In this document: positions 1 through 41,208 of the stretch, piece by piece
How positions within the stretch are numbered: position 1 is the first letter of the stretch
Layout: each line of letters begins with the position of its first letter
Origin: Eisenbergiella porci
GTDB taxonomy: Bacteria; Bacillota; Clostridia; Lachnospirales; Lachnospiraceae
Direction of reading: 5' to 3'
DNA length: 41,598 nucleotides
Assembly (NCBI RefSeq): GCF_009696275.1
Contig: NZ_VUMI01000049.1
Span: 1 to 41,598 of the forward strand
Made by a program: the position numbers and the translations under genes
The notes under the pieces: generated by a model
The model's input: the letters and a program-made list of their open reading frames with translations, nothing else
Told to the model about the DNA's origin: nothing
The model's database searches: none

Positions 1-1
1 G

Positions 2-145
2 TATATTCGTTTTCACTCTGGATCTGTCTACGAATATTATGATGTACCTTCATCCGTGTATAACGGACTTATGTCGGCATCTTCTAAAGGTACATACCAT
101 GCTGATTTTATCAAAAACAGATATAGGTACCGCAGAGTCGGCTAA
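2..145 (+). CDS. KTSC-domain protein, C-terminal part (5' end outside window)
   Basis: The frame is open from the left edge to TAA at 143-145, so only the last 47 residues are visible. They match the KTSC domain: SGSVYEYYDVP, then SKGTYHADFI and a terminal YRYRRV. KTSC domains are short modules found alone or fused to other domains in phages and bacteria; their function is not firmly established. The gene lies on the plus strand, opposite to the prophage late genes, and its last four bases overlap the end of the convergent small gene at 142-288. The start, promoter and full length cannot be seen. Family assignment is by pattern recognition. Confidence 0.7.
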   Translation, partial: YIRFHSGSVYEYYDVPSSVYNGLMSASSKGTYHADFIKNRYRYRRVG

Positions 146-288
146 TCGGTAATGATGAGAACAATGGCGGGGCCATTTACCAAAATTTCATTGTTTTGGT
201 AAGGCTCCGTACATTGGCAGGTAACTCCCTCTCTCTTCTTTATTTCTTCCACCAATTCATATGTTTTATATTTTTCTATGTCATTCAT
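142..288 (-). CDS. BC1881 family small phage protein
   Basis: A 48-residue reading frame with ATG at 286-288 and TAG at 142-144, preceded by a purine-rich stretch (GAGAGAAG) that can act as ribosome binding site. The pattern ELVEEIKKREGV near the N-terminus and NGPAIVLIITD at the C-terminus fits the BC1881 family, short proteins of unknown function common in Firmicutes phages. An imperfect inverted repeat (169-185 with 194-208) lies inside the coding region. The gene sits between the fibre cassette and the KTSC gene. The upstream side overlaps no other plausible gene, and a long plus-strand frame across it is only its antisense. Confidence 0.7.
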   Translation of the reverse strand: MNDIEKYKTYELVEEIKKREGVTCQCTEPYQNNEILVNGPAIVLIITD

Positions 289-321
289 ATCTTCTCTCTT
301 TCTCCGACACTCAGCAGTCGG

Positions 322-339
322 CAGCTAAATCAGAATTTA
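322..339 (+). repeat. inverted repeat, left copy (fibre cassette)
   Basis: CAGCTAAATCAGAATTTA on the plus strand; 16 of 18 bases match the minus-strand sequence of 1062-1079. Both copies are read in the same codon phase in the two fibre frames, as a crossover site for C-terminal exchange would need. Confidence 0.6.
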
Positions 340-681
340 GGGAGCCTACTATCCACATGGGATTATTTGACAGACAGCATTGCCGGAAAAGGAACAGCAA
401 CAACTGAATCAATTACTTTATCGCGCCCATTAAGTAGATATAAATTCTTATGCATTGAATTTGAAGTAGAAAAAAATCTACCTAATTACAGAGCTTATAT
501 GTACGGGAATTTAATTCCCGTATCCAAAATGACGCTCGGAAAAATTAAATGGGCTTTAGCCTATAATAATGCCTGGTCTTCAATAAGAATCGAAAAGTTA
601 TCCGATTCAAGTGTAAGTGTTACGCACGAATATAAGAATTATGAAGGTGGGATTGCTTACAGAATCATTGGCATATCGTAA
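322..681 (+). pseudogene. silent alternative C-terminal cassette of the tail fibre
   Basis: An open plus-strand frame ending with TAA at 679-681 encodes about 119 residues of fibre-like sequence (QLNQNL at its start, RAYMYGN and GGIAYRIIGIS further on). It has no start codon with a ribosome binding site and no promoter; the frame upstream of about 310 is antisense to the BC1881 gene. It converges on the expressed fibre gene (690-1361) with eight bases between the two stop codons. Its first six codons correspond in frame to the QLIQNL codons of the expressed gene. I read it as a stored 3' end that would be expressed after inversion of the segment between the repeats at 322-339 and 1062-1079. 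It could instead be a dead remnant. Confidence 0.6.
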
Positions 682-689
682 CGCCCGCA

Positions 690-1361
690 TTACCTAAGCG
701 CAAAATATCGGGCCTGTTCCCCTTTGTGAAGCGAACCACTCAGCGTTATTGTGAATCCGGTATCTGTTATAGTAAGCCATTTATTTTTGGTATATGACGA
801 TCCATCAAAACTATTATAGCTATATTGTTCCGTAAATCCACGAGTGGCTTCATAGCGCCATACAACGCTACTACTATAAGTTTCACTATTGCTCATTATG
901 CAGAGTTTCGATGGTCTGAAACCCAACTCATAGCTGACAGCTACATTTGCACTACTGGGAAGGATAATTTCTCCGAATAGAGCGCTACCCAACGGGACCC
1001 ACACTGAATCAGCACCTCTTACGTACTTAACGCCTTTTTCTTCCTTAAAGGCGAACCCGTTTAAATTCTGAATTAACTGTTTACCTGCCAGTGCCCCCAT
1101 CATGTAGCCGGCCTGCGTATTAGCCGCTATATCGTCAACATTATCTATAATCTTTGAAGCATCTGCAGCCGCATTAACCGCTGCATTGGTCTTATTTATA
1201 TCGGCGGCGCCGAAATTGCTCCCTACTTTTTCATACTGAGTTGCATCCTCCAGACACTTTGTGCCGTCACTGTTATCAGTAAAGGTATACCGTCTTTTCC
1301 CTCCCATTGTTGATTTCAGGACATCGTCCTGATAATTTGTCGGTAACGTTGCTTTCGCCAT
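690..1361 (-). CDS. prophage tail fibre / receptor-binding protein (expressed form)
   Basis: A 223-residue protein with ATG at 1361 overlapping the stop of the preceding gene (TAATG) and a GGTGG site upstream. The N-terminal half is hydrophilic and probably helical (repeated Asn/Ala-rich stretches such as NKTNAAVNAAAD), as in fibre shafts. From QLIQNL (codons at 1079-1062) onward it changes to a beta-rich C-terminus with many Ser, Tyr and Thr, as expected for a receptor-binding tip. It is the last late gene on this strand in the window and is followed tail to tail by an alternative C-terminus. No named domain is recognised; the role is inferred from position and composition. Confidence 0.6.
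   Translation of the reverse strand: MAKATLPTNYQDDVLKSTMGGKRRYTFTDNSDGTKCLEDATQYEKVGSNFGAADINKTNAAVNAAADASKIIDNVDDIAANTQAGYMMGALAGKQLIQNLNGFAFKEEKGVKYVRGADSVWVPLGSALFGEIILPSSANVAVSYELGFRPSKLCIMSNSETYSSSVVWRYEATRGFTEQYSYNSFDGSSYTKNKWLTITDTGFTITLSGSLHKGEQARYFALR
1062..1079 (-). repeat. inverted repeat, right copy (inside fibre gene)
   Basis: The minus strand reads CAGTTAATTCAGAATTTA, matching the plus-strand copy at 322-339 at 16 of 18 positions. It marks the point where the conserved N-terminus of the fibre protein gives way to the variable C-terminus. Confidence 0.6.
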
Positions 1362-1516
1362 TATTTTAATCCACCTTTCTTTGTGCCCAGCCGGTAAGGC
1401 AGGCGATACATATTCGGTTCCTGAACCGTTTCTTTTACGGTTACTTCCACTGTATATTTTTCGCCTACCTTTACTGGATTGGGGGTTATTTTGACTGCTG
1501 TTATTATTACTCCCAT
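1361..1516 (-). CDS. small phage tail-module protein (51 aa)
   Basis: ATG at 1516 preceded by AGAGGT, stop TAA at 1361-1363 overlapping the ATG of the fibre gene, which suggests translational coupling. The first half (TPNPVKVGEKYTVEV) resembles the edge of an Ig-like domain and is similar to the C-terminal stretch of the upstream 303-residue protein (SKNPVSTGEVFTIYV). The C-terminus is basic (GTKKGGLK). It may be a structural linker or a duplicated fragment of the Ig-like protein. No function can be named. Confidence 0.65.
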   Translation of the reverse strand: MGVIITAVKITPNPVKVGEKYTVEVTVKETVQEPNMYRLPYRLGTKKGGLK

Positions 1517-1532
1517 AGCAGTACCTCTATTC

Positions 1533-2444
1533 TTAATCTTCCACTTTTACGTAAATCGTAAATACTTCTCCGGTTGATACAGGATTCTTTGAATATGTAA
1601 CTTCTTTGATTACAGGTGCCTTTGTATCAAGCAGAATAGTCCTTGTTACACTTGAAACTTTACCAGCAGAATCTGTGGATGTAACTACAATCGTATTTGT
1701 CCCTTCTACCAGGGTTAATGTCGTGCTGAAAGCGCCATTGCTTCCCACCTCTACCGCTGCGGCCGTACCGGAATTCAGTTTTACAGTCACAGTACAAGGA
1801 GAAGAGGTCGCATCGTTTGTAGTTCCTGCCACGGTTACCGTTTTGTTATTGGTTGCCAGATTGTTCGTAGGACTGGTCACACTTAACTGAGGCGGTACAG
1901 TATCCACGGTAAATGATACTGCCCTTTGCGTAGCCTTATTCCCATCATAATCTGTGGCATCTACTTTTACTGTATGTGAACCATCTGCAAGTGCTGAAGG
2001 AATAGCATAGGAGCACTGATATCCACCTGTGATAGCTGTCTTAGTAATTCCTGCAGTTACCTTGCTGCCACTGTCAATTGTTATTGCAATCGTATCAGGA
2101 TTTACTCCGGAATCATTATCCGTTACTTTCCATGAGACTGTAGGTTTCGCATTGATTAATTTCTGCCCTGCCGTGGGGGAAGTAATTGTGGATACCGGTG
2201 ATGTTTTTTCATCAACATCCAGTTTCAATGAATTCCCTAAGGTTGCATGTGTATCATTTGCAGTAGCCATATTTCCGGCTGTATCCTCTGCTTTCGCAGT
2301 AACTGGATAATAATGTCCGCTGTTATTATTCCAGGAAGATTTTGAAGGCGCCGTTAACTCCTTAAAATATTTCCCGGATGCTGAATCATAAGAAAGTTCC
2401 GATTCCACTCCATTAACTATTACAACGACTCTTTTAACTGCCAT
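1533..2444 (-). CDS. phage protein with bacterial Ig-like domains
   Basis: A 303-residue, Thr/Ser/Val-rich protein starting MAVKRVVVIVNG. At least two Ig-like modules are visible: one around residues 80-180 (SPVSTITSPTAGQKL ... TVSWKVTDNDSGV ... SHTVKVDATD) and one at about 185-275 (PPQLSVTSPT ... TVTVAGTTND ... NTIVVTSTDSAG). These are extracellular-type beta-sandwich domains often added to phage tail or capsid proteins, where they are thought to bind carbohydrate or host surface weakly. There is no signal peptide, consistent with a virion part. It sits between the baseplate genes and the fibre gene in a tightly packed run (one base to the upstream stop). Confidence 0.75.
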   Translation of the reverse strand: MAVKRVVVIVNGVESELSYDSASGKYFKELTAPSKSSWNNNSGHYYPVTAKAEDTAGNMATANDTHATLGNSLKLDVDEKTSPVSTITSPTAGQKLINAKPTVSWKVTDNDSGVNPDTIAITIDSGSKVTAGITKTAITGGYQCSYAIPSALADGSHTVKVDATDYDGNKATQRAVSFTVDTVPPQLSVTSPTNNLATNNKTVTVAGTTNDATSSPCTVTVKLNSGTAAAVEVGSNGAFSTTLTLVEGTNTIVVTSTDSAGKVSSVTRTILLDTKAPVIKEVTYSKNPVSTGEVFTIYVKVED

Positions 2445-2445
2445 G

Positions 2446-3036
2446 CTATACTTTTACTCCTTTCCAGTCCCCTAAGCGGAAACTCAACCGTGCCAGACCG
2501 GCCTCCAGGTTATCTAATAATATGTTCATCTGCAGGATTGCCCCTTCAAGCCTATTCAATTCTTCCCAGTCAATAAATGGGCCGTTGTCAAAAAATCTGA
2601 CTGTCGGCCCATAATCCTGCGTAAATATATGTTTGTTTATAGTATCCAGGTTCTGCTCAAACAGGTTCCATTCATCAGCATGGTAATCCGTTCGATAGCC
2701 TATTTTATCAGCTCCCATGTCCTGCACCAGGAAGGCGGCATATAGCTCTGAAGCACGTTCGTTTAGGAATTCCAGATTATTTTTTATCCGATTGTAATCC
2801 TCAATATTCACCGGATCGGTCGGCTGCCAATTGGTCTTTGGCGCATGCCATTTTGTCACACCCACCGTTTTATCTGCAATAGCAACATTCCCGCCATCAT
2901 CATAAGCAGATACCCGCAGGTTGTATTCTCCGGCTTTTTCAGGCGCTTCATGGCTTCCGGTATACATTTCAGCGCCGATCCGCTCCAGGCCTTTCCTTAC
3001 ACCGTTAAACGCCGATTCAACCCGTTCTATTTCCAT
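2446..3036 (-). CDS. phage tail/baseplate protein, function unassigned
   Basis: A 196-residue protein whose start overlaps the end of the upstream baseplate gene by 20 bases. The N-terminus (to about residue 60) looks like an Ig/fibronectin-type strand set ending in GEYNLRVSAYDDGG. The rest carries a pattern seen in small Firmicutes phage tail proteins: TDPVNIEDYNRIKNNL, then DWEELNRLEG and a terminal helix. By position it belongs to the baseplate or fibre attachment apparatus. No enzymatic motif is seen. Confidence 0.6.
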   Translation of the reverse strand: MEIERVESAFNGVRKGLERIGAEMYTGSHEAPEKAGEYNLRVSAYDDGGNVAIADKTVGVTKWHAPKTNWQPTDPVNIEDYNRIKNNLEFLNERASELYAAFLVQDMGADKIGYRTDYHADEWNLFEQNLDTINKHIFTQDYGPTVRFFDNGPFIDWEELNRLEGAILQMNILLDNLEAGLARLSFRLGDWKGVKV

Positions 3037-5257
3037 TGTGCAGCACCACCTTTCTCGCCTTCATCTGCCCGTTCCATCCGCCGGAATACTTCAGCGTATT
3101 TTCATAACCGCGAATCATGGGCGCATCCCTCTCCTCATCCTGTTTAAGGTAAAATAAGTCATGAGCATCAATTCGGGGATCGCCGCGGGTTTTCAGCACA
3201 TACTCCACATCCCCCAGGTAATACTCCGTGAGCCATACCTGCAGGTCACTGGCCTGCTCCACGGTGCTTATCAGCGGATTCTTCCACTCAACCACCTTCC
3301 CTGATTGGTTATGCTGAACAGTATAATAATTCTCATCCGTCAGGTATTCACGGCCGGTAAGGCTGTACTTCACAACGGTCTCGGCAGATAATCCGCTGAA
3401 GCGCAGAACAGCATAATAATTACTGCTGTCCACAATCTGACAGTTTACGTTTTCATTATCCACCACGGTCGCCGCCAAGTCATAACTGGCCGCCGTAAAA
3501 TAGACTGTATATTCTGGATTCTCCGGTGATATACTTATTTCTTCTGACTTTAGTTCTTTGTTTTCCTCATTTTCCCGGTATACAGTCCGTTTCACAGAAA
3601 TTTTCTGAATCTTATCTGCTCTTTTCCCGGTTACTGATAACAGCATTCCGCCGCCATAGGTCAGCGTATAGTCCGTAATGTCGCCAATCAAGATATTGTC
3701 CACCGTTATCCGGCTGTTGGGATGTCCGCGGGTAAACACAATCTCCATCCGGTCAAAAAGTTGCATCTGTTCCTGCGTTTCATATACCAGTTCCGTGTCC
3801 GATACCGTCCATTCGGCCACTTTCACACCAGCATTATATGTCCGTATCTGGAATTCTTCCGGAGCTACATTGCGGAATCGGATTAAAAGGCCGTAAGCAA
3901 CAAATGCCGCCTCCAAATCTATCGTAATCTCTGGCGGTTCCTGAAACATGCCGTTTTCATCTGCTATTCCGCTACTGATAAATCCTGTGTTTAGGTAATT
4001 TCCGTCCCGCGGCATAAAATAAAGGCTGCCGTCGGCCACCGAGAAATCATTACTCTGCAGTGCATAGGCATCCTTCTTTTCATCTTTTAATATTTTGCTT
4101 ACGTGACTGTATTCTGTTTCCCCATTACTGGATGATGTCATATCTGGTATGAAGGAGCTACGAATCTGGATAGTCCCGTTCCGGCTCTGCATAAGGGAAC
4201 AGCGGCCGGCATTGGCAACCATTTGTAGCGCTTCCGTGTGCTTAACCACAGGTATGGGATTGTATGCCATAACCCTTTTCAGATATGGATCCAGGTAATA
4301 CTCTTCCACACCGGCATCCCGGAATACATCCTCCGCCAGGTCATATAGGCTGATACCCTGCGGCATGTACCTTCCTCGCCGGTATGTCCCATCCAGGTAG
4401 TCAAACACATCCGTCGCCGTGAACTTGGCTTTCTGCTCATCCGCAGACCATGATTTCAAGTAACTGTTCTGCGGCGGCAGCCACTCTATGCTTCCGTCAT
4501 CCAACTCATAACCAAACTTGACATTCACAGCCTGGCCTATCTCCATAAAAGCCAGGGCGCTGTCCGGGTTATCCGGATTGTAATATCCATCGTAATTATT
4601 AACCGTCAGGGATACGTCCCAGCTTGGCAGGCTGTCAGTGATTGGGGATACATGCTCTTTCATGCTGTAGGATATCACCTGAGAGTCAGTAAAGGCATTG
4701 GCTATGCCACACACAAACTGGTATATCCGCAGCCTTCCCTGCCCATTCACCATTTTTGAAGGCGTGATGCGGAAATAAGACGTCCCACGGAACACATCCT
4801 GTGTTGACCAACATGATTTTGTATTCTCATTGTAGGAATGCGCGCCCTGGTCGTTCTCAATCACAAAATCTGTGGGATAACACTCACCGAAATCTATTGT
4901 CAGCCCCTTGATATCCAGCCCCGTCACGCCGCCGAAGCTGATATACACCGTCCCCAGTAAATCCTCCGTTACAATTCCCTGCGAAAAAATCACTTTTGCC
5001 GGGTCACGGGGAAGGAAATATTTCTTGCCGTCAGCCAGTGTAAAGTCCTGTTCAGCCGTTGCGTAAATATGGTCTATAGCCGTTCCTGTAAATGGGGCAT
5101 CCGCATCTGAAAAGTATGTGAACCGGTTTCGGCTATCGGCAGCGCCAACATGCTTCTGCGCTTCGGAATTGATTACTCCAATATACACATTGATATGCCC
5201 GGGATTACGGAGGATGCTGTTCATGGACTGCTTATACTGCTTACTTACATTTTGCAT
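3017..5257 (-). CDS. phage baseplate / tail structural protein
   Basis: About 746 residues, read from the ATG at 5255-5257; an in-frame TTG 15 bases upstream is less likely because it lies before the stop of the preceding gene. The protein is rich in aromatic and acidic residues with beta-type patterns and shows no catalytic motif. The middle part (WDVSLTVNNYDGYYNPDNPDS, about residues 212-232) is typical of Firmicutes phage baseplate or tail-associated structural proteins encoded after the tape measure gene. In SPP1-like and TP901-like phages this slot holds Dit/Tal-type proteins forming the tail tip. Exact equivalence is not claimed. Confidence 0.6.
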   Translation of the reverse strand: MQNVSKQYKQSMNSILRNPGHINVYIGVINSEAQKHVGAADSRNRFTYFSDADAPFTGTAIDHIYATAEQDFTLADGKKYFLPRDPAKVIFSQGIVTEDLLGTVYISFGGVTGLDIKGLTIDFGECYPTDFVIENDQGAHSYNENTKSCWSTQDVFRGTSYFRITPSKMVNGQGRLRIYQFVCGIANAFTDSQVISYSMKEHVSPITDSLPSWDVSLTVNNYDGYYNPDNPDSALAFMEIGQAVNVKFGYELDDGSIEWLPPQNSYLKSWSADEQKAKFTATDVFDYLDGTYRRGRYMPQGISLYDLAEDVFRDAGVEEYYLDPYLKRVMAYNPIPVVKHTEALQMVANAGRCSLMQSRNGTIQIRSSFIPDMTSSSNGETEYSHVSKILKDEKKDAYALQSNDFSVADGSLYFMPRDGNYLNTGFISSGIADENGMFQEPPEITIDLEAAFVAYGLLIRFRNVAPEEFQIRTYNAGVKVAEWTVSDTELVYETQEQMQLFDRMEIVFTRGHPNSRITVDNILIGDITDYTLTYGGGMLLSVTGKRADKIQKISVKRTVYRENEENKELKSEEISISPENPEYTVYFTAASYDLAATVVDNENVNCQIVDSSNYYAVLRFSGLSAETVVKYSLTGREYLTDENYYTVQHNQSGKVVEWKNPLISTVEQASDLQVWLTEYYLGDVEYVLKTRGDPRIDAHDLFYLKQDEERDAPMIRGYENTLKYSGGWNGQMKARKVVLHNGNRTG

Positions 5258-5259
5258 CC

Positions 5260-5631
5260 CTATACCCCGCAATCTATAATGTTTACTTTACAATTCACAT
5301 AAGTGGTAGGCTTCCCATCCTTATCCACCCAGTAAGGCTCTGCTGACCGGTCCCCTGGATACATTTTGAGAGATATATACTCATCTGTCACCGGGTCAGG
5401 AAATGTCACCGTTGCGAAAAAATTAGAAAATGCCTGCAATATGAATTTCCACTGCTTGGCAGTCAGCATCGGCCAGACAAGCGCGTTAATTTTATACTGG
5501 TCACGGCCGATCCGCTGCGCAACCACCTCGGCCTTTGCGTTCCTTGTGCTGTCAACCGGTGTGGTAACGATTATATTGCATCCACGGGCCGGATACGGGA
5601 ACTCTACTCCATTCACGTAGATATACGCCAT
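5260..5631 (-). CDS. small tail protein (DUF6711-like)
   Basis: 123 residues from ATG at 5629-5631, preceded by GGAAGGAAG; an in-frame codon six residues upstream lacks a better site. The start MAYIYVNGVEFPYPARG and the motif KINALVWPMLTAKQW resemble the DUF6711 group of siphovirus proteins, which sit between tape measure and baseplate genes. A role in the distal tail is inferred from position only. The stop is two bases before the ATG of the next gene, so the pair is probably coupled. Confidence 0.6.
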   Translation of the reverse strand: MAYIYVNGVEFPYPARGCNIIVTTPVDSTRNAKAEVVAQRIGRDQYKINALVWPMLTAKQWKFILQAFSNFFATVTFPDPVTDEYISLKMYPGDRSAEPYWVDKDGKPTTYVNCKVNIIDCGV

Positions 5632-10464: not shown

Positions 10465-10568
10465 AATCTCAGCAATGCTGTAACCCCAGAAAGCTTCAGG
10501 GCTATATCCCAGCTCAAGAAATCCAGGATACAGCCCCTCTATGACGTCCGTAACTCTATCATCAGGTG

Positions 10569-11024
10569 TTACATCTCTTCCCTGGCCTTCCCCATCGTTT
10601 CCGACAGGTCCTCCGCCAGACTCTTGGAGAAAAAACCGCTTACCATAAAGATTTCCATATACACGCCAGCATAGAACTCCAACTGGGATCCACCGTTCTC
10701 CATGTAACGGTCAAATAATGCTTCCACATCTTTCATCTTGACACTGTGGTGCCAGGGCTTCATGGCAACGTGTGCGACATCCAACATTACGGTCAACGGC
10801 GGCATTGATTCACCGTCATGCGGCTGCATCAGGTTGATAACATTGGTCTTGTACCGGCTTTCCAGCTCTTTGATACCCGCAGTACTGAGTTTCAGCTGGT
10901 ATCCGGTGTCTCCTACATTCCATACAGCAAAACCTATACTTTTTTTCTTCTCAGCAGCTGCTTCCTCTTTTTTCTCTGCAGCTTCCTCGATTGATACCAC
11001 TTTTTCTTCCGGGAAATAATTCAT
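10569..11024 (-). CDS. tail assembly chaperone, upstream (G-type) frame
   Basis: 151 residues, starting MNYFPEEKVVSIEEAAEKK after a GGAGGT site. An acidic/basic helical N-terminus is followed by a globular part (GFAVWNVGDTGYQLKLSTAG, NLMQPHDGES) as in Firmicutes siphovirus tail chaperones. It lies between the tail tube gene and the tape measure gene, the canonical place. The frame ends with TAA at 10569-10571 while the -1 frame stays open through it, giving a longer fusion of about 288 residues if ribosomes slip near GGGGAAG at 10587-10593. Confidence 0.8.
   Translation of the reverse strand: MNYFPEEKVVSIEEAAEKKEEAAAEKKKSIGFAVWNVGDTGYQLKLSTAGIKELESRYKTNVINLMQPHDGESMPPLTVMLDVAHVAMKPWHHSVKMKDVEALFDRYMENGGSQLEFYAGVYMEIFMVSGFFSKSLAEDLSETMGKAREEM
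10587..10593 (-). other. candidate -1 ribosomal frameshift site
   Basis: The minus strand reads GGGGAAG, with zero-frame codons GGG AAG. Slipping back one base keeps GGG in the P site and gives GAA in the A site; this resembles, but is not identical to, the GGGAAAG site of lambda G-T. It lies seven codons before the zero-frame stop at 10569-10571, and the -1 frame is open across it into the 10159-10464 gene. Confidence 0.5.
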
Positions 11025-11041
11025 CTTTCATAACCTCCATC

Positions 11042-11452
11042 TTAAGCCGGGTCCACAATGGTAATCTCACTCTGCAAAGCCATCGTCACATCAAACTGGA
11101 TTACACCATTGACACCGCCACCGGTACGCTTCACGGATACTTTTGCGTCAAACTGTATTTTCGTACCGTCAGCGTCCGTTTCGCAAAAGGATCCGACTTT
11201 GCCGGCGGCTTCCATTGCACGCAGTGTACGGTAAGGACAATCTGCCTTTGAGTTATCATACAGGAACTTGTATACCAGTTCCCCGGCATCCCCAATTCCT
11301 ACATCGTACTTTTTCACCTTATCCTTCAGTACGGTGATAGCCACCTTCTCCGGGGTATTGCCCACCTCCGGGATTTCCTGCAGCCCAGGCAGATCCGTAT
11401 ATTCCGCAGATTCACCTTTTTTCACACCAAGTTCTGCTCCATTCGCTAACAT
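11042..11452 (-). CDS. major tail tube protein
   Basis: 136 residues, starting MLANGAELGVKKGESAEYTD. The sequence is beta-rich with the layout of TP901/SPP1-type tail tube proteins: an N-terminal arm, a central PEKVAITVLKDKVKKYDVG strand-turn region and a C-terminal VNGVIQFDVTMALQSEITIV. It follows the tail-completion gene and precedes the chaperones, as in most siphoviruses. The product is expected to polymerise into the tail tube. Confidence 0.8.
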   Translation of the reverse strand: MLANGAELGVKKGESAEYTDLPGLQEIPEVGNTPEKVAITVLKDKVKKYDVGIGDAGELVYKFLYDNSKADCPYRTLRAMEAAGKVGSFCETDADGTKIQFDAKVSVKRTGGGVNGVIQFDVTMALQSEITIVDPA

Positions 11453-17185: not shown

Positions 17186-18626
17186 CTACATCACCGCGCT
17201 TCTTCTTTTCAGGCGGTTCATCCTCCTGTTTTTCATCCGGAGGAGTGTTGCTGCCAAGCCCGAAGGCCTCCTTCTGCTTCTCGAATGCCTCCGTCTCTTC
17301 CTTCTCTACTGCTTTCAGCTCCTCTTCCGGATCTTCTACGAAGGGAATCTGTGACAGTAATGTCTTGCGGCTTACCTTCCCCCATAGATTAACTGTTATC
17401 TGGCTGATTTCCAGCAGGTTTTTTGGCAATGCCCGAGTAAATGTCGGCTTTATCGCCTTGATATCAATGTTCACTCCGCTGCGCTTATTAAGGTAATTGG
17501 AAAAAATACGGAGCCGCCTGCGCAGCCCCTTTTTATAATACCTGGTCTTTATCTTTGTTATGTTTTCCATCCCGAGCAATTTAAATTCCATAGCCACGCC
17601 GCTGACATTCCCGCCAAAAGCTTCATCCGTCATACATGGAATGTGCGAAAACTTATGGATATCCTGTTCGATAGCCTTTTTCAAAATCTCAACGCCAGAT
17701 TCATCAAAGGTGCGGGTAAGGTATTCAGCTTTTGAGCCATCCGGTAGCTCCAGAAGCTTTTCTTTTTTTATCCGCTTCATTGCCGCCTGGGAATTTGTTT
17801 CCTCTCCCTCTTGTACCGTGGTTTCATCTTCATCTGCCAGCAGTGTACCATAGATTGCAAGAATGGCATCTATGAATTGCTCCTTGTCCGTAATACGGTC
17901 GCTCATCAGGGCGTTGTACGCATCAATCAAAGGTATCTGTAGCTCATAGTCCCCAATCTCCAGCTTGTTATTCTGATATTCAATAATAGGAACCTCTCCC
18001 ATGAAATGGGGCTCCGGAGTTTCGACAAGCGGTTGTATCTCCTCCGTGTCCTGAATGTTCAGAACGTACTTATAATTCTGCGTCACCACCGTAGCAGCAT
18101 ACCGGATATTGGTTTTATCGGTATCATCTATTTTTGGATAATAGTATACGCCGAATAACTCATTTTTCTCTATGGTATCATCACACACAATAAAAGTGTT
18201 CTGGGGAGGAAGATTCTTAATTCTAAGTTCAGCGGCCTCCCGCGCTGCATAGATATACTCATAGGCTCTACCATACACAGAAAGGTCGAGGCCAAGGTCT
18301 CCATCTGCCTCATCAGCACCAGCGCTTTCCAGTTCATCCGTTAGCGGCGTAATATCCTGATCACTTTTATATGCCACCGGGTTCCCGATGAAATAGGAAC
18401 TTGCGGTATCAGAAATATCCTTCGCATGGTTGCACACAAGTTTGTTTGCCCTGTTCTCTGACAGTATCTTATGCTGCCCGCCATAGTATTTCTCAAGCGT
18501 TTCAAGGCGCGGTATGCAGGCCCTATGCTTCTGTATCAGATGCAGGATATCACGTTTATTCAGATTGCGTTCATCATATGTCTCTGCAGGTATTGTGAAT
18601 TGTCTCAATTTATCACCTTCTTTCAA
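17178..18626 (-). CDS. portal protein (SPP1 gp6 type)
   Basis: 482 residues, starting MKEGDKLRQFTIPAETYDER after a GAAGGTGA site and overlapping the large terminase stop by four bases. The pattern LNKRDILHLIQKHRACIPR, YYGGQH, NRANKLVCNHAKDISDTASS and YFIGNPVAY is characteristic of SPP1-family portals. The C-terminus is highly charged (EKEETEAFEKQKEAF, then a Lys/Glu-rich tail). The protein forms the dodecameric ring through which DNA is pumped and to which terminase and connectors bind. Confidence 0.92.
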   Translation of the reverse strand: MKEGDKLRQFTIPAETYDERNLNKRDILHLIQKHRACIPRLETLEKYYGGQHKILSENRANKLVCNHAKDISDTASSYFIGNPVAYKSDQDITPLTDELESAGADEADGDLGLDLSVYGRAYEYIYAAREAAELRIKNLPPQNTFIVCDDTIEKNELFGVYYYPKIDDTDKTNIRYAATVVTQNYKYVLNIQDTEEIQPLVETPEPHFMGEVPIIEYQNNKLEIGDYELQIPLIDAYNALMSDRITDKEQFIDAILAIYGTLLADEDETTVQEGEETNSQAAMKRIKKEKLLELPDGSKAEYLTRTFDESGVEILKKAIEQDIHKFSHIPCMTDEAFGGNVSGVAMEFKLLGMENITKIKTRYYKKGLRRRLRIFSNYLNKRSGVNIDIKAIKPTFTRALPKNLLEISQITVNLWGKVSRKTLLSQIPFVEDPEEELKAVEKEETEAFEKQKEAFGLGSNTPPDEKQEDEPPEKKKRGDVDE

Positions 18627-19990
18627 TGCAGCCCCAACTTCTGTTTATTTTTAATCCTGGCTCTGTTCGTGCCAAGTATTGTAAATACAAAATATCTGAC
18701 GGCATCCATTCCGTGGTCATGCTGCTTCACTGGTTTATCTTCCCCACGTTCGGCCGCCTTCTCATCCCAGATATAGCTTCCGAATTCTTTTATCGTCCCC
18801 TGGCAGTTATCTGCAAACACAAGCTGCCCATTCTGGAGTAGGGAGGCCACCAGCCTGATACCGTCCAGCACATCATTTTTACCTTTTATGACGGTATACC
18901 CTCTCTTCCGCAGCTCCGCAATAAAGGAAGCTGCCGCCGGATCCACAATCACGGCCCTTATTGGGGTCCCCTCCAGCCATTTCTTCAAGTCATCTGCATA
19001 TTCGCTGTCTGTTTTTTGGCTGCCTTTATCGCGGCCGGAATAATAGTACTCACGAATGCAGTACCATTTCTTATCACAGCCCTTATTCCACAAGAGAAAA
19101 ACTGTAGCATTTTGCGTACCATAATCAATAGATACGTACCTGCTACCATCTGTAAGCAGCTGGAAAAATTCAGTTATCTTCTTAACATGCCTCTCTTCAG
19201 AAAACATGTCATAGATAATGCCTTCGGCCATAGCCCATAAGCCAAGTATGTAGCGTTTGAAGAATACGCCGCTGTAATTGCTCCGGTATCTGGCTTTAAT
19301 CTCTTCGGACAGGCTCAGGTTATCGTCCATTGTGAAATGGACATATAGGAGCTTTTTCAGGCCGGCTTCCTTGCCTTCCCTTGCGGCTGTCTCCTGAAGT
19401 TTCCTGACTTTCTCTTTACCGATATATCCGATAGCTTTATCAATCCAATCAACCTTGAACCAGTGATACGGCCCATCCGGATTGCAATTGAACCAGTACT
19501 TGCTTCCGTCCACGGAACAGCGGCCTGTTGCCTGGTTGACAAAGGATTCCGGCATCAGCGCAACCTCATCAAAAAAGACCCCTGCCAAAGTGATACCTTG
19601 GATGAGATCCTGCGAACGTTCATCTTTTCCCCCGAAGATATAAAAATAGTTCTCAACTCCATGCCTGGAGACTATCACCAGGTTATCCGCCCGATGGTCT
19701 GCCACCTTATAGCCGCGGCTCCGCAGCATCAGCTTAAGCCAGAACAATACATTCCGGCGAAAGCTGCCAATGGTCTTGCCACACATTCCAAAGTTCTGGC
19801 CGTTGAATCGCGTCATAGCCCACAACACATATGACAGCGACATACTTATTGTCTTGCCCGATCGGATTGCTCCATCGGCTATAATGCCGTCATAGTCCTT
19901 CACGGGGGATGCATCGCACCACCAGTTCAGAACTTTCCGCTGCTTCTGAGAGAATGGCTTGAAATGAAATATCTGGTTAACCTTCTTCAT
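18623..19990 (-). CDS. terminase large subunit
   Basis: 455 residues from ATG at 19988-19990 (GGAGGA upstream), overlapping the small subunit gene by 14 bases. Walker A GAIRSGKT at residues 40-47 and Walker B VFFDE with acidic pair at 141-142 mark the packaging ATPase. The nuclease half contains VSIDYGTQNATVF and AVIVDPAAASF, with the acidic residues expected of the RNase H-like fold. PBSX/SPP1-type family. It cuts concatemers and pumps DNA into proheads together with the small subunit and portal. Confidence 0.95.
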   Translation of the reverse strand: MKKVNQIFHFKPFSQKQRKVLNWWCDASPVKDYDGIIADGAIRSGKTISMSLSYVLWAMTRFNGQNFGMCGKTIGSFRRNVLFWLKLMLRSRGYKVADHRADNLVIVSRHGVENYFYIFGGKDERSQDLIQGITLAGVFFDEVALMPESFVNQATGRCSVDGSKYWFNCNPDGPYHWFKVDWIDKAIGYIGKEKVRKLQETAAREGKEAGLKKLLYVHFTMDDNLSLSEEIKARYRSNYSGVFFKRYILGLWAMAEGIIYDMFSEERHVKKITEFFQLLTDGSRYVSIDYGTQNATVFLLWNKGCDKKWYCIREYYYSGRDKGSQKTDSEYADDLKKWLEGTPIRAVIVDPAAASFIAELRKRGYTVIKGKNDVLDGIRLVASLLQNGQLVFADNCQGTIKEFGSYIWDEKAAERGEDKPVKQHDHGMDAVRYFVFTILGTNRARIKNKQKLGLH

Positions 19991-31659: not shown

Positions 31660-31762
31660 AACTGATATAAGCCCTCAACAAGCATATTGTATCAGTTCCC
31701 GGTATATTTTACAAGCTTACCGGGCATTTTTATGCCCAATTTTAAAGAAAGGACTGATACAA
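31660..31762 (+). promoter_or_regulatory. structured leader of the integrase mRNA
   Basis: Several mutually exclusive stems: AACTGATA (31660-31667) with TATCAGTT (31690-31697); TTGTATCAGT (31687-31696) with ACTGATACAA (31753-31762), which covers the bases just before and into the start codon; CCCGGTA (31698-31704) with TACCGGG (31719-31725); and GGGCAT-TTTT-ATGCCC (31723-31738). The second pairing would hide the integrase start, the others would free it. Confidence 0.5.
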
Positions 31763-33051
31763 TGGCACGAATAAGAAAAGGCGAACTGCCCAGCGGCAAC
31801 ATTCGAAAACAAGTATTTGATCACTTTGAACCTCTGTTTGATGATACCGGACGCCCTATCATCGATCCCAAAACAGGCAAACAGAAGAAAAAACGGGTAT
31901 ACATCTCCATAACCAGAAGTTCAGTAGATGAAGTCAATCTTGCTAAAGCTGAAGTAAAAATAAATAAGGCTTCCAAAAAACAACCAGCAAATATCACCTT
32001 ACGTGAGGTAATTGAGAAATATATCTCTTCTTCCGATGCAGTACTATCTCCTACAACAGTAAGAGGATATAATACCATTTTAAATAATGCCTTCGTCTCT
32101 ATTATGGATATGAAAATTTCTAAATTGAGTACTGAGACTTTAAAGGAAGCAGTTAACCAGGAAGCCAAGCGGATGACCAGAGGGAAAAAACCGCATCGTA
32201 TATCAGCCAAAACTGTCAGCAATGAATACGGCTTGATTGCTGCCGTCTTAAATATATATGCCCCCAGTCTCGATACCTCCGTAAAGCTGCCGGCCAGAAA
32301 TCCTAAAAAACACGAATTATCTCCGCCAGATATAATTTTCAATATGGTAAAAGGAACAGAGATAGAGCTCCCGGTACTACTTGCTATGTGGCTTTCTTTT
32401 TCCATCTCAGAAATTAAGGGTCTGTATAAATCAAAATCCATATCCAGCAATGGTGATTATATCTCTATTGTTCAGGTAACTGTTAAAGTTGGGAAAAAAG
32501 AAATAACAAAGGATAATGCAAAACAGATAACACGTCACAGAACGCACCGTATCCCTGCATACATCAAAGATTTGATTGCCAAGGTAGAAACAGACCAGTT
32601 GGTAACATTAAGCGCTTCTGCAGTCTCTAATCGTTTTAAACGCCTGGTCCTGAAATATAAAATTCCGTATATGACTTTTCATGATTTACGACACGTAAAT
32701 GCCTCTGTTATGACTCTCCTGAATATTCCGGATAAATATGCCCAGGAACGTGGTGGTTGGAAAACGGATGCTGTAATGAAGGGTACATATATGCAAACCT
32801 TCACCCGGGCCAGGGTTGAAGTAGATGATACCATAGATAACTACTTTGAATCCCTACTCTTCGGCACTCCGGAAAGCATAGACCAAAAGTATAAAGCATG
32901 GCTGCTACTGTTTGATATGGAAGATAATTCAGAAAATAAAATACTTTACAATTCCTTTATGGCTCAAAAAGAACGCATAATTCTTCTTCTCTCAGATACA
33001 GAATCTCAAAAAGTGCAACACGAAATGCAACACGAAAAGAAAAACCCCTGA
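31762..33051 (+). CDS. prophage tyrosine integrase
   Basis: 429 residues from ATG at 31762 with GAAAGGA upstream; the frame runs 25 codons further up, but through leader structures. N-terminal AP2-like/arm-binding region, then a SAM-like core-binding domain (about 85-180), then the catalytic domain: HDLRH (H307, R310), GGWKTDAVM with W for the usual His, and Y343 in GTYMQTF. At the box I position the sequence is SFSISEIKGL, with S214 where Arg is normal. The C-terminus has a QHEMQHE repeat. It ends 20 bases before the tRNA-Leu 3' end, consistent with integration into that tRNA. Confidence 0.92.
   Translation: MARIRKGELPSGNIRKQVFDHFEPLFDDTGRPIIDPKTGKQKKKRVYISITRSSVDEVNLAKAEVKINKASKKQPANITLREVIEKYISSSDAVLSPTTVRGYNTILNNAFVSIMDMKISKLSTETLKEAVNQEAKRMTRGKKPHRISAKTVSNEYGLIAAVLNIYAPSLDTSVKLPARNPKKHELSPPDIIFNMVKGTEIELPVLLAMWLSFSISEIKGLYKSKSISSNGDYISIVQVTVKVGKKEITKDNAKQITRHRTHRIPAYIKDLIAKVETDQLVTLSASAVSNRFKRLVLKYKIPYMTFHDLRHVNASVMTLLNIPDKYAQERGGWKTDAVMKGTYMQTFTRARVEVDDTIDNYFESLLFGTPESIDQKYKAWLLLFDMEDNSENKILYNSFMAQKERIILLLSDTESQKVQHEMQHEKKNP
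33014..33037 (+). repeat. tandem 12-bp repeat in the end of the integrase gene
   Basis: TGCAACACGAAA at 33014-33025 is repeated exactly at 33026-33037, encoding a QHEMQHE tail. It lies within 35-60 bp of the tRNA 3' end, where integrase arm sites could be. Confidence 0.6.
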
Positions 33052-40188: not shown

Positions 40189-41208
40189 TTACTCTGCAGC
40201 AATATTAATTGCATGCATATAAGCATCCGAACCTCGTACACAGGTAACTGCAACCTTTTTCCCGCTGACCAGTGCCTTACAATTGCTGAGCGTGAACAGC
40301 ACATCCAGTTTCAGTTCCATTTTACCCTGCGCAGTACTCAGATAAAGCAGATTCTCATTCGATTCACGTTCCACAGTACCTTTTACGGTTACAATAGACG
40401 AGGTATCAAGCTGGACTGCCGAGGGATTGTTCTTTGAAGCCACAATGGCGGAGGCATGAAGATAGGCATCCGAGCCGCGGTAAAAAGAAACCGTCACCGT
40501 ATTGCCGGGTGTAAGAATCATACCTTTGCTGGTATCCGTATCATTGTCGATTACAAACTGCATTTCACCTTCTTTGGTAGACAGATACAGAAGATTATCC
40601 TTTGTGCTGTCACCTACCGTACCGGTAACTCCTGGAGCTGTATTGCCTTTCGCTCCTCCTGCGGTATCTGAAATACTGATGGCATGCATATAAGCATCAG
40701 AACCTCTGGCACAGGAAATAAAATAAGTATTTCCCGCCACAAGATAAGAGCATCCGCTCATACCCGTATTCGAATCCAGCTTAATCTGCATTTCGCCGGC
40801 GCTTGTATTCAGATACAGAATATCATCCTTGGTTTTATCACTCAATGTCCCCTTTACCGTAACGGTAGTGGATGCGTCAAGTGTGGTTGACGAAGTCTGC
40901 GTTTCGCTGGTAATCTTAACAGCATGAAGATAGCTGTCCGAACCACGGGATACGGAAACGCTTATTTTCTTGCCGGGCAGCAATATCTTGCAGGCACTGG
41001 CATCCGTATCGCTGTCGAGCTTTATTTCCATATTGCCCTGCGGTGTGGAGAGCCTGAGCAAATCAGAGGTTGTCCCCGATGAAATAGTTCCCTGCACTGT
41101 TGCAATAATCTCATTCGCCTTAACCTCAAGCTGATTTATCGGCATTACGGATATTCCAAGTATCAGGCAGATAGTCATACATAGCTTAATTATTCTGTCC
41201 TTCTTCAT
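40189..41208 (-). CDS. secreted protein with four tandem approximately 75-residue repeats
   Basis: 339 residues from ATG at 41206-41208, GGAGGG upstream (an ATG two codons earlier is too close to that site). A signal peptide is clear: KKDRIIKLCMTICLILGISV with likely cleavage after VKA near residue 32. Four repeats follow, each running from a VxGT strand through LLYLST.xGEM and xLD to an ending RGSDAYxHA (RGSDSYLHAV, RGSDAYMHAI, RGSDAYLHAS, RGSDAYMHAI). The pattern suggests small beta barrels of OB type. No cell-wall anchor motif is seen. I do not recognise a named family; an extracellular binding role is a guess. Confidence 0.75.
   Translation of the reverse strand: MKKDRIIKLCMTICLILGISVMPINQLEVKANEIIATVQGTISSGTTSDLLRLSTPQGNMEIKLDSDTDASACKILLPGKKISVSVSRGSDSYLHAVKITSETQTSSTTLDASTTVTVKGTLSDKTKDDILYLNTSAGEMQIKLDSNTGMSGCSYLVAGNTYFISCARGSDAYMHAISISDTAGGAKGNTAPGVTGTVGDSTKDNLLYLSTKEGEMQFVIDNDTDTSKGMILTPGNTVTVSFYRGSDAYLHASAIVASKNNPSAVQLDTSSIVTVKGTVERESNENLLYLSTAQGKMELKLDVLFTLSNCKALVSGKKVAVTCVRGSDAYMHAINIAAE

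Follow-up and report, generated by a model that had tools for sequence, protein, structure and literature searches.

Does the tail-fibre gene near the left end of this Eisenbergiella porci contig carry a tip that can be exchanged by DNA inversion and, if so, which recombinase would carry out the exchange? The window, by which we mean the whole of contig C94 (41,598 nucleotides) from a 6.1-Mb genome in 149 contigs, holds a prophage in which, judged by gene order, a minus-strand tail-type operon ends at the fibre gene. An initial annotation had proposed a candidate invertible fibre-tip switch at this place. From our comparisons we consider it very probable that a temperate phage carries an invertible cassette of receptor tips at 322-1079, most likely inverted by a recombinase of the type encoded on contig C108 of the same genome. 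The proposal gained support from the presence of the same site in three prophage cassettes, from tips that change exactly at the site, and from silent tips that resemble tips expressed elsewhere.

Anatomy of the cassette

The inverted repeat measures 18 nt, of which 16 are matched, and consists of a left site at 322-339 (plus strand, CAGCTAAATCAGAATTTA), with the core TAAATCAGAATTTA at 326-339, and an inverted right site at 1062-1079 (minus strand, CAGTTAATTCAGAATTTA), found by repeat and motif searches, with 722 nt between the two. The core TAAATnnnnATTTA is exact in the left arm (326-339) and one base off in the right arm (TAATTCAGAATTTA). The site is a short dyad, TAAAT-CAGA-ATTTA, and its codons give L-(N/I)-Q-N-L. 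The fibre gene (690-1361, minus strand, 223 aa) is composed of a constant N-terminal part of 94 aa (1080-1361, minus strand) and an expressed C-terminal tip module of 129 aa starting with QLIQNL (690-1079, minus strand). It is faced by a convergent plus-strand open frame that ends at 681 and constitutes a silent alternative tip module of 119 aa, starting with QLNQNL (322-681, plus strand); the two arms share a codon phase, and 8 bp separate the two convergent stop codons (682-689). The two modules show no similarity to each other in BLASTP at E ≤ 0.01. On the repeat, the two frames, the gap between them and their common phase, coordinates included, the initial annotation proved accurate.

This arrangement suggests the following mechanism. 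The constant 94-residue N-terminus would lie outside the invertible segment and the last 129 residues inside it, with the alternative 119-residue tip stored in inverted orientation behind them. Recombination between the two sites would join the silent module in frame to the constant N-terminus, and the asymmetric centre of the dyad would set the direction of exchange. Lysogens would then be expected to release virions with differing tail tips. In a search of its own genome, the assembly shows one orientation only of the C94 cassette.

An Ig-like protein of the tail-type operon, identified by search, is encoded next to the fibre gene (1533-2444, minus strand). On the other side, a small ORF of 48 aa lies directly outside the silent site (142-288, minus strand), followed by the 3' end of a KTSC-domain gene (2-145, plus strand; PF13619, E 8.7e-17) that is cut by the contig end. 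As C94 stops at position 1 inside this gene, the prophage is incomplete on that side.

Recurrence of the site and chance expectation

The repeat alone is unremarkable: among 60 simulated windows, generated as first-order Markov copies of the window, 26 held at least one pair as good, that is, with at least 16 matches and at least 88% identity. The full configuration, in which a repeat encloses two convergent in-phase frames that fill its inside, was rarer and, with the cut-off relaxed to at least 13 matches, appeared in one of the 60 simulations. At this same lax cut-off, control viral loci gave a match in 9 of 51 cases, one of which, L044, looks genuine on inspection; the controls were those 51 loci (870 kb) of the 62 from a portal scan that measure 9 kb or more, the 11 shorter ones having been left out. 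Because the repeat alone is not significant, the case rests on comparison.

With at most one mismatch, the motif YTRAATYAGAATTTARR has seven matches in the 6.1-Mb genome, and its backwards control has one. Six of the seven form three inverted pairs that bound fibre cassettes on C94, C108 and C110; the seventh lies in an array of tips on C107. Exact matches to YTAAWTCAGAATTTA number six in this genome and exactly one in each of 31 of the 396 other family genomes, none of which contains a pair. The backwards control of the YTAAWTCAGAATTTA scan matched eight genomes, once each except for G433 with eight matches, so that such letter clusters can arise otherwise; the G433 matches probably reflect a repeated element. 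Perfect TAAATnnnnATTTA cores occur 26 times in 1.06 Mb of background, a count that includes 15 loci fetched for the motif.

The first 1400 bases of the window matched three further contigs of the genome. On C108, a fibre gene (501-1133, minus strand) faces a spare tip ending at 492, and a fibre gene on C110 likewise faces a spare tip. A detector that does not use the motif recovered the cassettes of C94, C108, C110 and the phage record G463 at these sites, with stop-to-stop gaps of 8, 8, 7 and 8; it placed the sites of C108 at 113-127/899-913 (gap 8) and those of C110 at 30809-30823/31494-31508 (gap 7). The first part of the expressed tip of C94 is 54.5% identical to the expressed tip of C110 over 33 aa. 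In the last 2.2 kb of C107 (L004/L008), tip-like frames, five in all, occupy both strands, with variants of CCACCTAAATTAGAAT between them. This multi-tip array is cut by the contig end and, by eye, adjoins an apparent lysin gene.

Matches elsewhere were sparse. Window positions 1-1400, searched against 145 genomes, matched nothing outside the own genome but two short stretches, one of 23 and one of 36 bases. The fibre protein matched no viral contig and one phage record, over 56 residues; the tail protein encoded at 3017-5272 had no match among the genome contigs, and the silent tip had none among phage records at E ≤ 0.01.

Candidate recombinase

The initial annotation saw no recombinase in the window, thereby overlooking the prophage integrase, a tyrosine recombinase of 454 aa at 31687-33051 (plus strand; PF00589, 30.5 bits); besides this integrase, indeed none is assembled there. 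Neither the assembled C94 contig nor that of C110 contains a candidate for the inverting enzyme, and the C94 integrase has no match at E ≤ 1e-3 to the recombinase of G463 or that of C108. The C108 gene (19723-20907, minus strand) encodes a tyrosine recombinase of 394 aa and, by eye, adjoins a terminase-like gene (17691-19316). Since it is the sole PF00589 match on its contig, it could be the integrase of the C108 prophage, which makes the proposed role slightly less likely. In G463, a recombinase of 340 aa (18418-19440) stands before the terminase genes, and a separate 396-aa integrase is found at the end of the record (gene order read by eye). The C108 and G463 recombinases share no more than 31% identity, even though the two prophages have the same site.

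The columns R, K, H, R, H and Y, which we take to be the catalytic residues, are invariant in 9 of 9 aligned recombinase rows; in a three-row alignment, the tyrosine is not among the invariant columns. All six members scanned against PHROGs were called integrase, and Xer-like models of NCBIfam match the group, below the cut-off for four of the five members scanned, with L205 passing one. A profile search at E ≤ 1e-40 found relatives in 64 of the 397 genomes of the family, this genome among them. In the own assembly it found one member, that of C108, whose score is not independent as the profile was built with its sequence. The same gene is 37% identical over 340 aa to the enzyme of L205, which places a member of the hsdS-type Xer-like recombinase family in this genome.

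We fetched 15 regions around recombinase genes found at E ≤ 1e-40. Three of them contain a fibre cassette (G389, G257 and G058) and two contain hsdS-type repeats (G440 and G016), with nothing convincing in the other ten; detector matches in G050 (one) and G025 (two) were judged to be chance, and the detector missed G058. The repeat is AACTAAATAGAAAATTG in G389 (17/17), ACTAAATAGCAA and AATGATAATGAATAT in G257, and CAGCTAAATAGTGATTTAG in G058, where two spare tips follow the fibre gene and enclose the recombinase gene. No perfect TAAATnnnnATTTA core is present in G389 or G257. In L212 (MT839831.1), a 17/17 repeat, TAAATAATAATTTGCAC, adjoins the recombinase gene and is accompanied by a spare frame. 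By inspection, relatives of the recombinase also occur in phages with fibre cassettes in G180, G204 and G447, where the gene lies beside the cassette as in G058, and L245, L247 and L244 have a layout like that of G058. The Ig-like protein encoded next to the C94 fibre gene is 61% identical to its counterpart in G058 and 50% identical to that in G257, both of which bear cassettes.

Other members of the group are associated with hsdS. Among 30 four-kb loci, nine show hsdS or hsdM similarity, one of them weakly, and homologues beside hsdS (L205, L236 and L237) have repeats such as TAAATGATAATTTAG. In L205 (MT835621.1), the recombinase gene lies inside the hsdS locus and a 24/24 repeat begins with TAAATGATAATTTAG. 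Fibre and hsdS genes are both cut at N-x-N-L (LNQNL in C94, INDNL in L205), because the core codes for it. In a tree of 43 recombinase rows, 25 of them without a context label and two (C108 and L220) being the same gene, one fully supported branch parts 11 hsdS rows, including L213 and L214 labelled by reading their frames, from 7 fibre rows. With an assumed midpoint root, the fibre rows fall into three groups (G463, L212, G389 and G257; C108; G058); of the unlabelled fibre-like loci, L245 groups with G058, and L247 and L244 stand next to hsdS rows. Positions 4026-8988 of L205, a record labelled Bacteriophage sp., look like a type I restriction-modification locus subject to phase variation, having a recombinase and inverted hsdS, and the record may be bacterial DNA.

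Two other loci, which weigh against the proposed explanation, have similar cassettes. L274 has a fibre-type cassette of the same layout at 10496-11173, with an 18/18 repeat (AATAAAGGTTATGCGAAT), a gap of 6 and an unrelated site; its 16.9-kb locus contains no member of the recombinase family. The cassette of L044 (8046-8782), a metagenomic contig with a portal relative, has the site AAATAGCAATTTA (LNSNL) and a gap of 7, and no family member was found in its 12 kb.

Because C108 encodes one such recombinase, and because relatives accompany fibre cassettes and hsdS loci with similar repeat cores, the enzyme of the switch is likely a Xer-like tyrosine recombinase of the C108 kind and not a Gin-type serine invertase. 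By this association, the product of C108:19723-20907 would catalyse the flip. As the assembled C94 prophage encodes no recombinase but its integrase, action in trans is possible, if hypothetical: the enzyme would have to act from C108 on the cassettes of both C94 and C110, unless unassembled sequence contains a further copy. It is conceivable, though on balance unlikely, that the cassette is instead inverted by an enzyme of the same prophage, whose gene would lie to the left of position 1 in sequence missing from the assembly. C94 does end inside a gene there, and the recombinase gene is found on that side of the cassette, between the fibre gene and downstream phage genes, in G058 and, by inspection, in G180, G204 and G447; however, the flank seen here is the pair of small ORF and KTSC gene, which is met in two viral contigs among regulator-type genes, and the C108 gene is the one family member that the profile search returned from the assembly.

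Exchange of tips between prophages

The motif scan of viral contigs yielded 15 stretches, two of which (L155 and L154) were examined for fibre genes. In L155, which belongs to the record G463 (45,844 bp), an inverted pair at 40245/41031 bounds a cassette, and L154 has one site within a fibre gene. Before the site, C110 and G463 agree in 398 of 400 bases; after it, in 11/50, 20/100 and 28/100. Farther upstream the two resemble each other less (87/100). Over the 100 bp that precede its site, C94 matches G463 in 78 of 96 aligned bases and C110 in 76 of 94. On the silent side, C94 and C108 are identical in 100 of 100 bases before the site and in 24 of 100 after it. The reverse pattern is found when silent tips are compared with expressed ones: the silent tip of C108 and the expressed tip of L154 agree in 25/100 bases before the site and 78/100 after it, and the expressed tip of C108 and the silent tip of G463 in 21/100 and 74/100. 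These breaks in identity, together with the likeness of silent and expressed tips, indicate that tips have been exchanged at the site and occur in both states. Comparison with related prophages, which the initial annotation had put forward as a check, thus speaks for the switch, as tip identity breaks at the site and the silent tips are open and in phase.

Exchange between prophages at the site, which is what these comparisons directly show, would also be expected if the site were a modular junction, a linker for evolutionary tip swaps between phages, with the inverted tip a left-over and no programmed inversion; the lack of a candidate recombinase on the assembled C94 prophage and the single assembled orientation agree with this. 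We nevertheless consider it improbable, since the second tips in C94, C108, C110 and G463 are open, inverted and in phase, with 7-8 bp from stop to stop, which a left-over would hardly keep, and since several relatives have a recombinase gene beside or between such cassettes.

Relation to known inversion systems

Phage tip shufflons of the tyrosine type are already known, and the proposed C94 switch is a variant of these. The Rin shufflon of Bifidobacterium prophages (PMC6109161), which has a counterpart in Eggerthella lenta (PMC8778435), shares with C94 a prophage receptor-binding gene with a constant N-terminus and C-terminal tips exchangeable at short inverted sites, as well as an enzyme of the tyrosine family, to which the candidate here also belongs. 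A second bifidophage locus is reported to lack a recombinase gene at its side and may depend on one that acts in trans (PMC6109161). In C94, too, we find a constant N-terminus and exchangeable in-frame C-terminal modules at inverted sites. The Rin site, rix, is given as 11 bp (TTCCCTAACCC), or 8 bp in E. lenta, whereas C94 has CAGCTAAATCAGAATTTA with the core TAAATCAGAATTTA. Rin is described as having several tips beside a recombinase gene, while the C94 prophage, as assembled, lacks such a gene and has two tips, and Rin inversions were seen in sequence reads, while the C94 cassette is known from the assembly alone.

The initial annotation had named the gin system of Mu as the precedent, which applies to the function and not to the enzyme, as serine matches are absent from the cassette contigs and our candidate is a Xer-like tyrosine recombinase. 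Gin, Cin and Min are serine recombinases that act on longer (26-bp) crossover sites with the help of a Fis-bound recombination enhancer. The 36 matches to the serine recombinase domain PF00239 in the genome include none on C94, C108, C110 or C107 as assembled; 31 of the 36 lie in frames of more than 300 aa and five in frames of 100-182 aa, four of the latter beside further matches. In Mu, P1 and p15B (PMC6109161), inversion replaces fibre C-termini, and a constant gene, a spare tip and inverted sites are arranged as in C94. With none of the PF00239 matches on these four contigs as assembled, and with a repeat of 18 nt, a small serine invertase flipping the cassette at its own kind of site is highly improbable. 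Clusters of large serine recombinase genes are present on C59, C66, C72, C81 and C90.

The hsdS inverters PsrA/CreX of S. pneumoniae (PMC7096588, PMC4948785, PMC6620402) use a tyrosine recombinase that flips coding 3' ends in frame. The repeat of the hsdS locus L205, TAAATGATAATTTAG, is of the same layout as the C94 site. The hsdS systems target hsdS, whereas the target in C94 stands last in a phage tail-type operon, behind the gene for the Ig-like protein. The pneumococcal conserved core, ATTATGGGAA, differs from the C94 site, and on this ground, which concerns the site and not the PsrA sequence, PsrA was dropped as a model for the site. Inversions in prophage regions, notably of tail fibres, are reported for four species of Proteobacteria (PMC5903667). 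Among the titles and abstract openings listed, none reports a site of the C94 type or this enzyme group on fibre genes of Firmicutes. The work of Milman et al. 2023 on gene-altering inversions is a likely place for a prior mention.

Tip structure and implications

The silent tip was modelled by AF2 with moderate confidence (pLDDT 69.6), and the PDB chains that match the model best are from the baseplate of S. aureus phage phi812 (9euf, E 2.9e-3 and 1.7e-2) and gp144 of phage K (5m9f, E 1.3e-2), with rmsd values of 6.2-6.7, other proteins close behind and none at E ≤ 0.001. The matched chains are presumably receptor-binding proteins, and the model hints weakly at such a role for the tips. The model of the expressed fibre (pLDDT 37.6) was unusable.

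A broader reading, which we regard as doubtful, is that the one C108 recombinase might flip the tail switches of no fewer than three prophages in the same cell (C94, C108 and C110), whose common site would also let them trade tips and flanks, so that virion tips would be drawn from a common pool, with sister enzymes flipping hsdS in related bacteria. If this were true, the attack range of phages and the defence range of hosts would be switched by sister enzymes acting on sites of one design. If the cassette works as proposed, tyrosine-type receptor-tip switching would extend from actinobacterial prophages to those of a Lachnospiraceae-type family (several fibre relatives bear the name Lachnospiraceae), an enzyme group known to PHROGs and NCBIfam only as integrase or Xer-like would become tied to the inversion of tips and of hsdS, and three prophages in one cell may depend on a single invertase. 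Host range could then not be predicted reliably from a single prophage sequence.

Sequences flanking the cassette

Positions 214-340 match the start of C108, a second prophage, in 127 of 127 bases, and the two sequences diverge immediately beyond the site. The overlap of C94 with C29 at the other contig end is also 127 bases, and these equal lengths suggest an assembly graph with 127-base words. The C94/C108 overlap may represent two prophages with a common flank; as proof of inversion it was rejected, since a shared flank explains it equally well. A second inverted repeat (212-224/1081-1093), considered as part of the site, was dropped as a likely chance match. By eye, an inverted stem, CCGAC-ACTCAGCA-GTCGG, at 304-321 abuts the left site, and the same ACTCAGCA loop is seen outside the silent site of G463 with a paired change in the stem (CCGGC/GCCGG). 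The small ORF, ending in GPAIVLIITD, and the KTSC-like gene occur tail to tail at 2-288 of the window, at 9962-10356 of L281 and at 4422-4771 of L282, and are perhaps a travelling gene pair.
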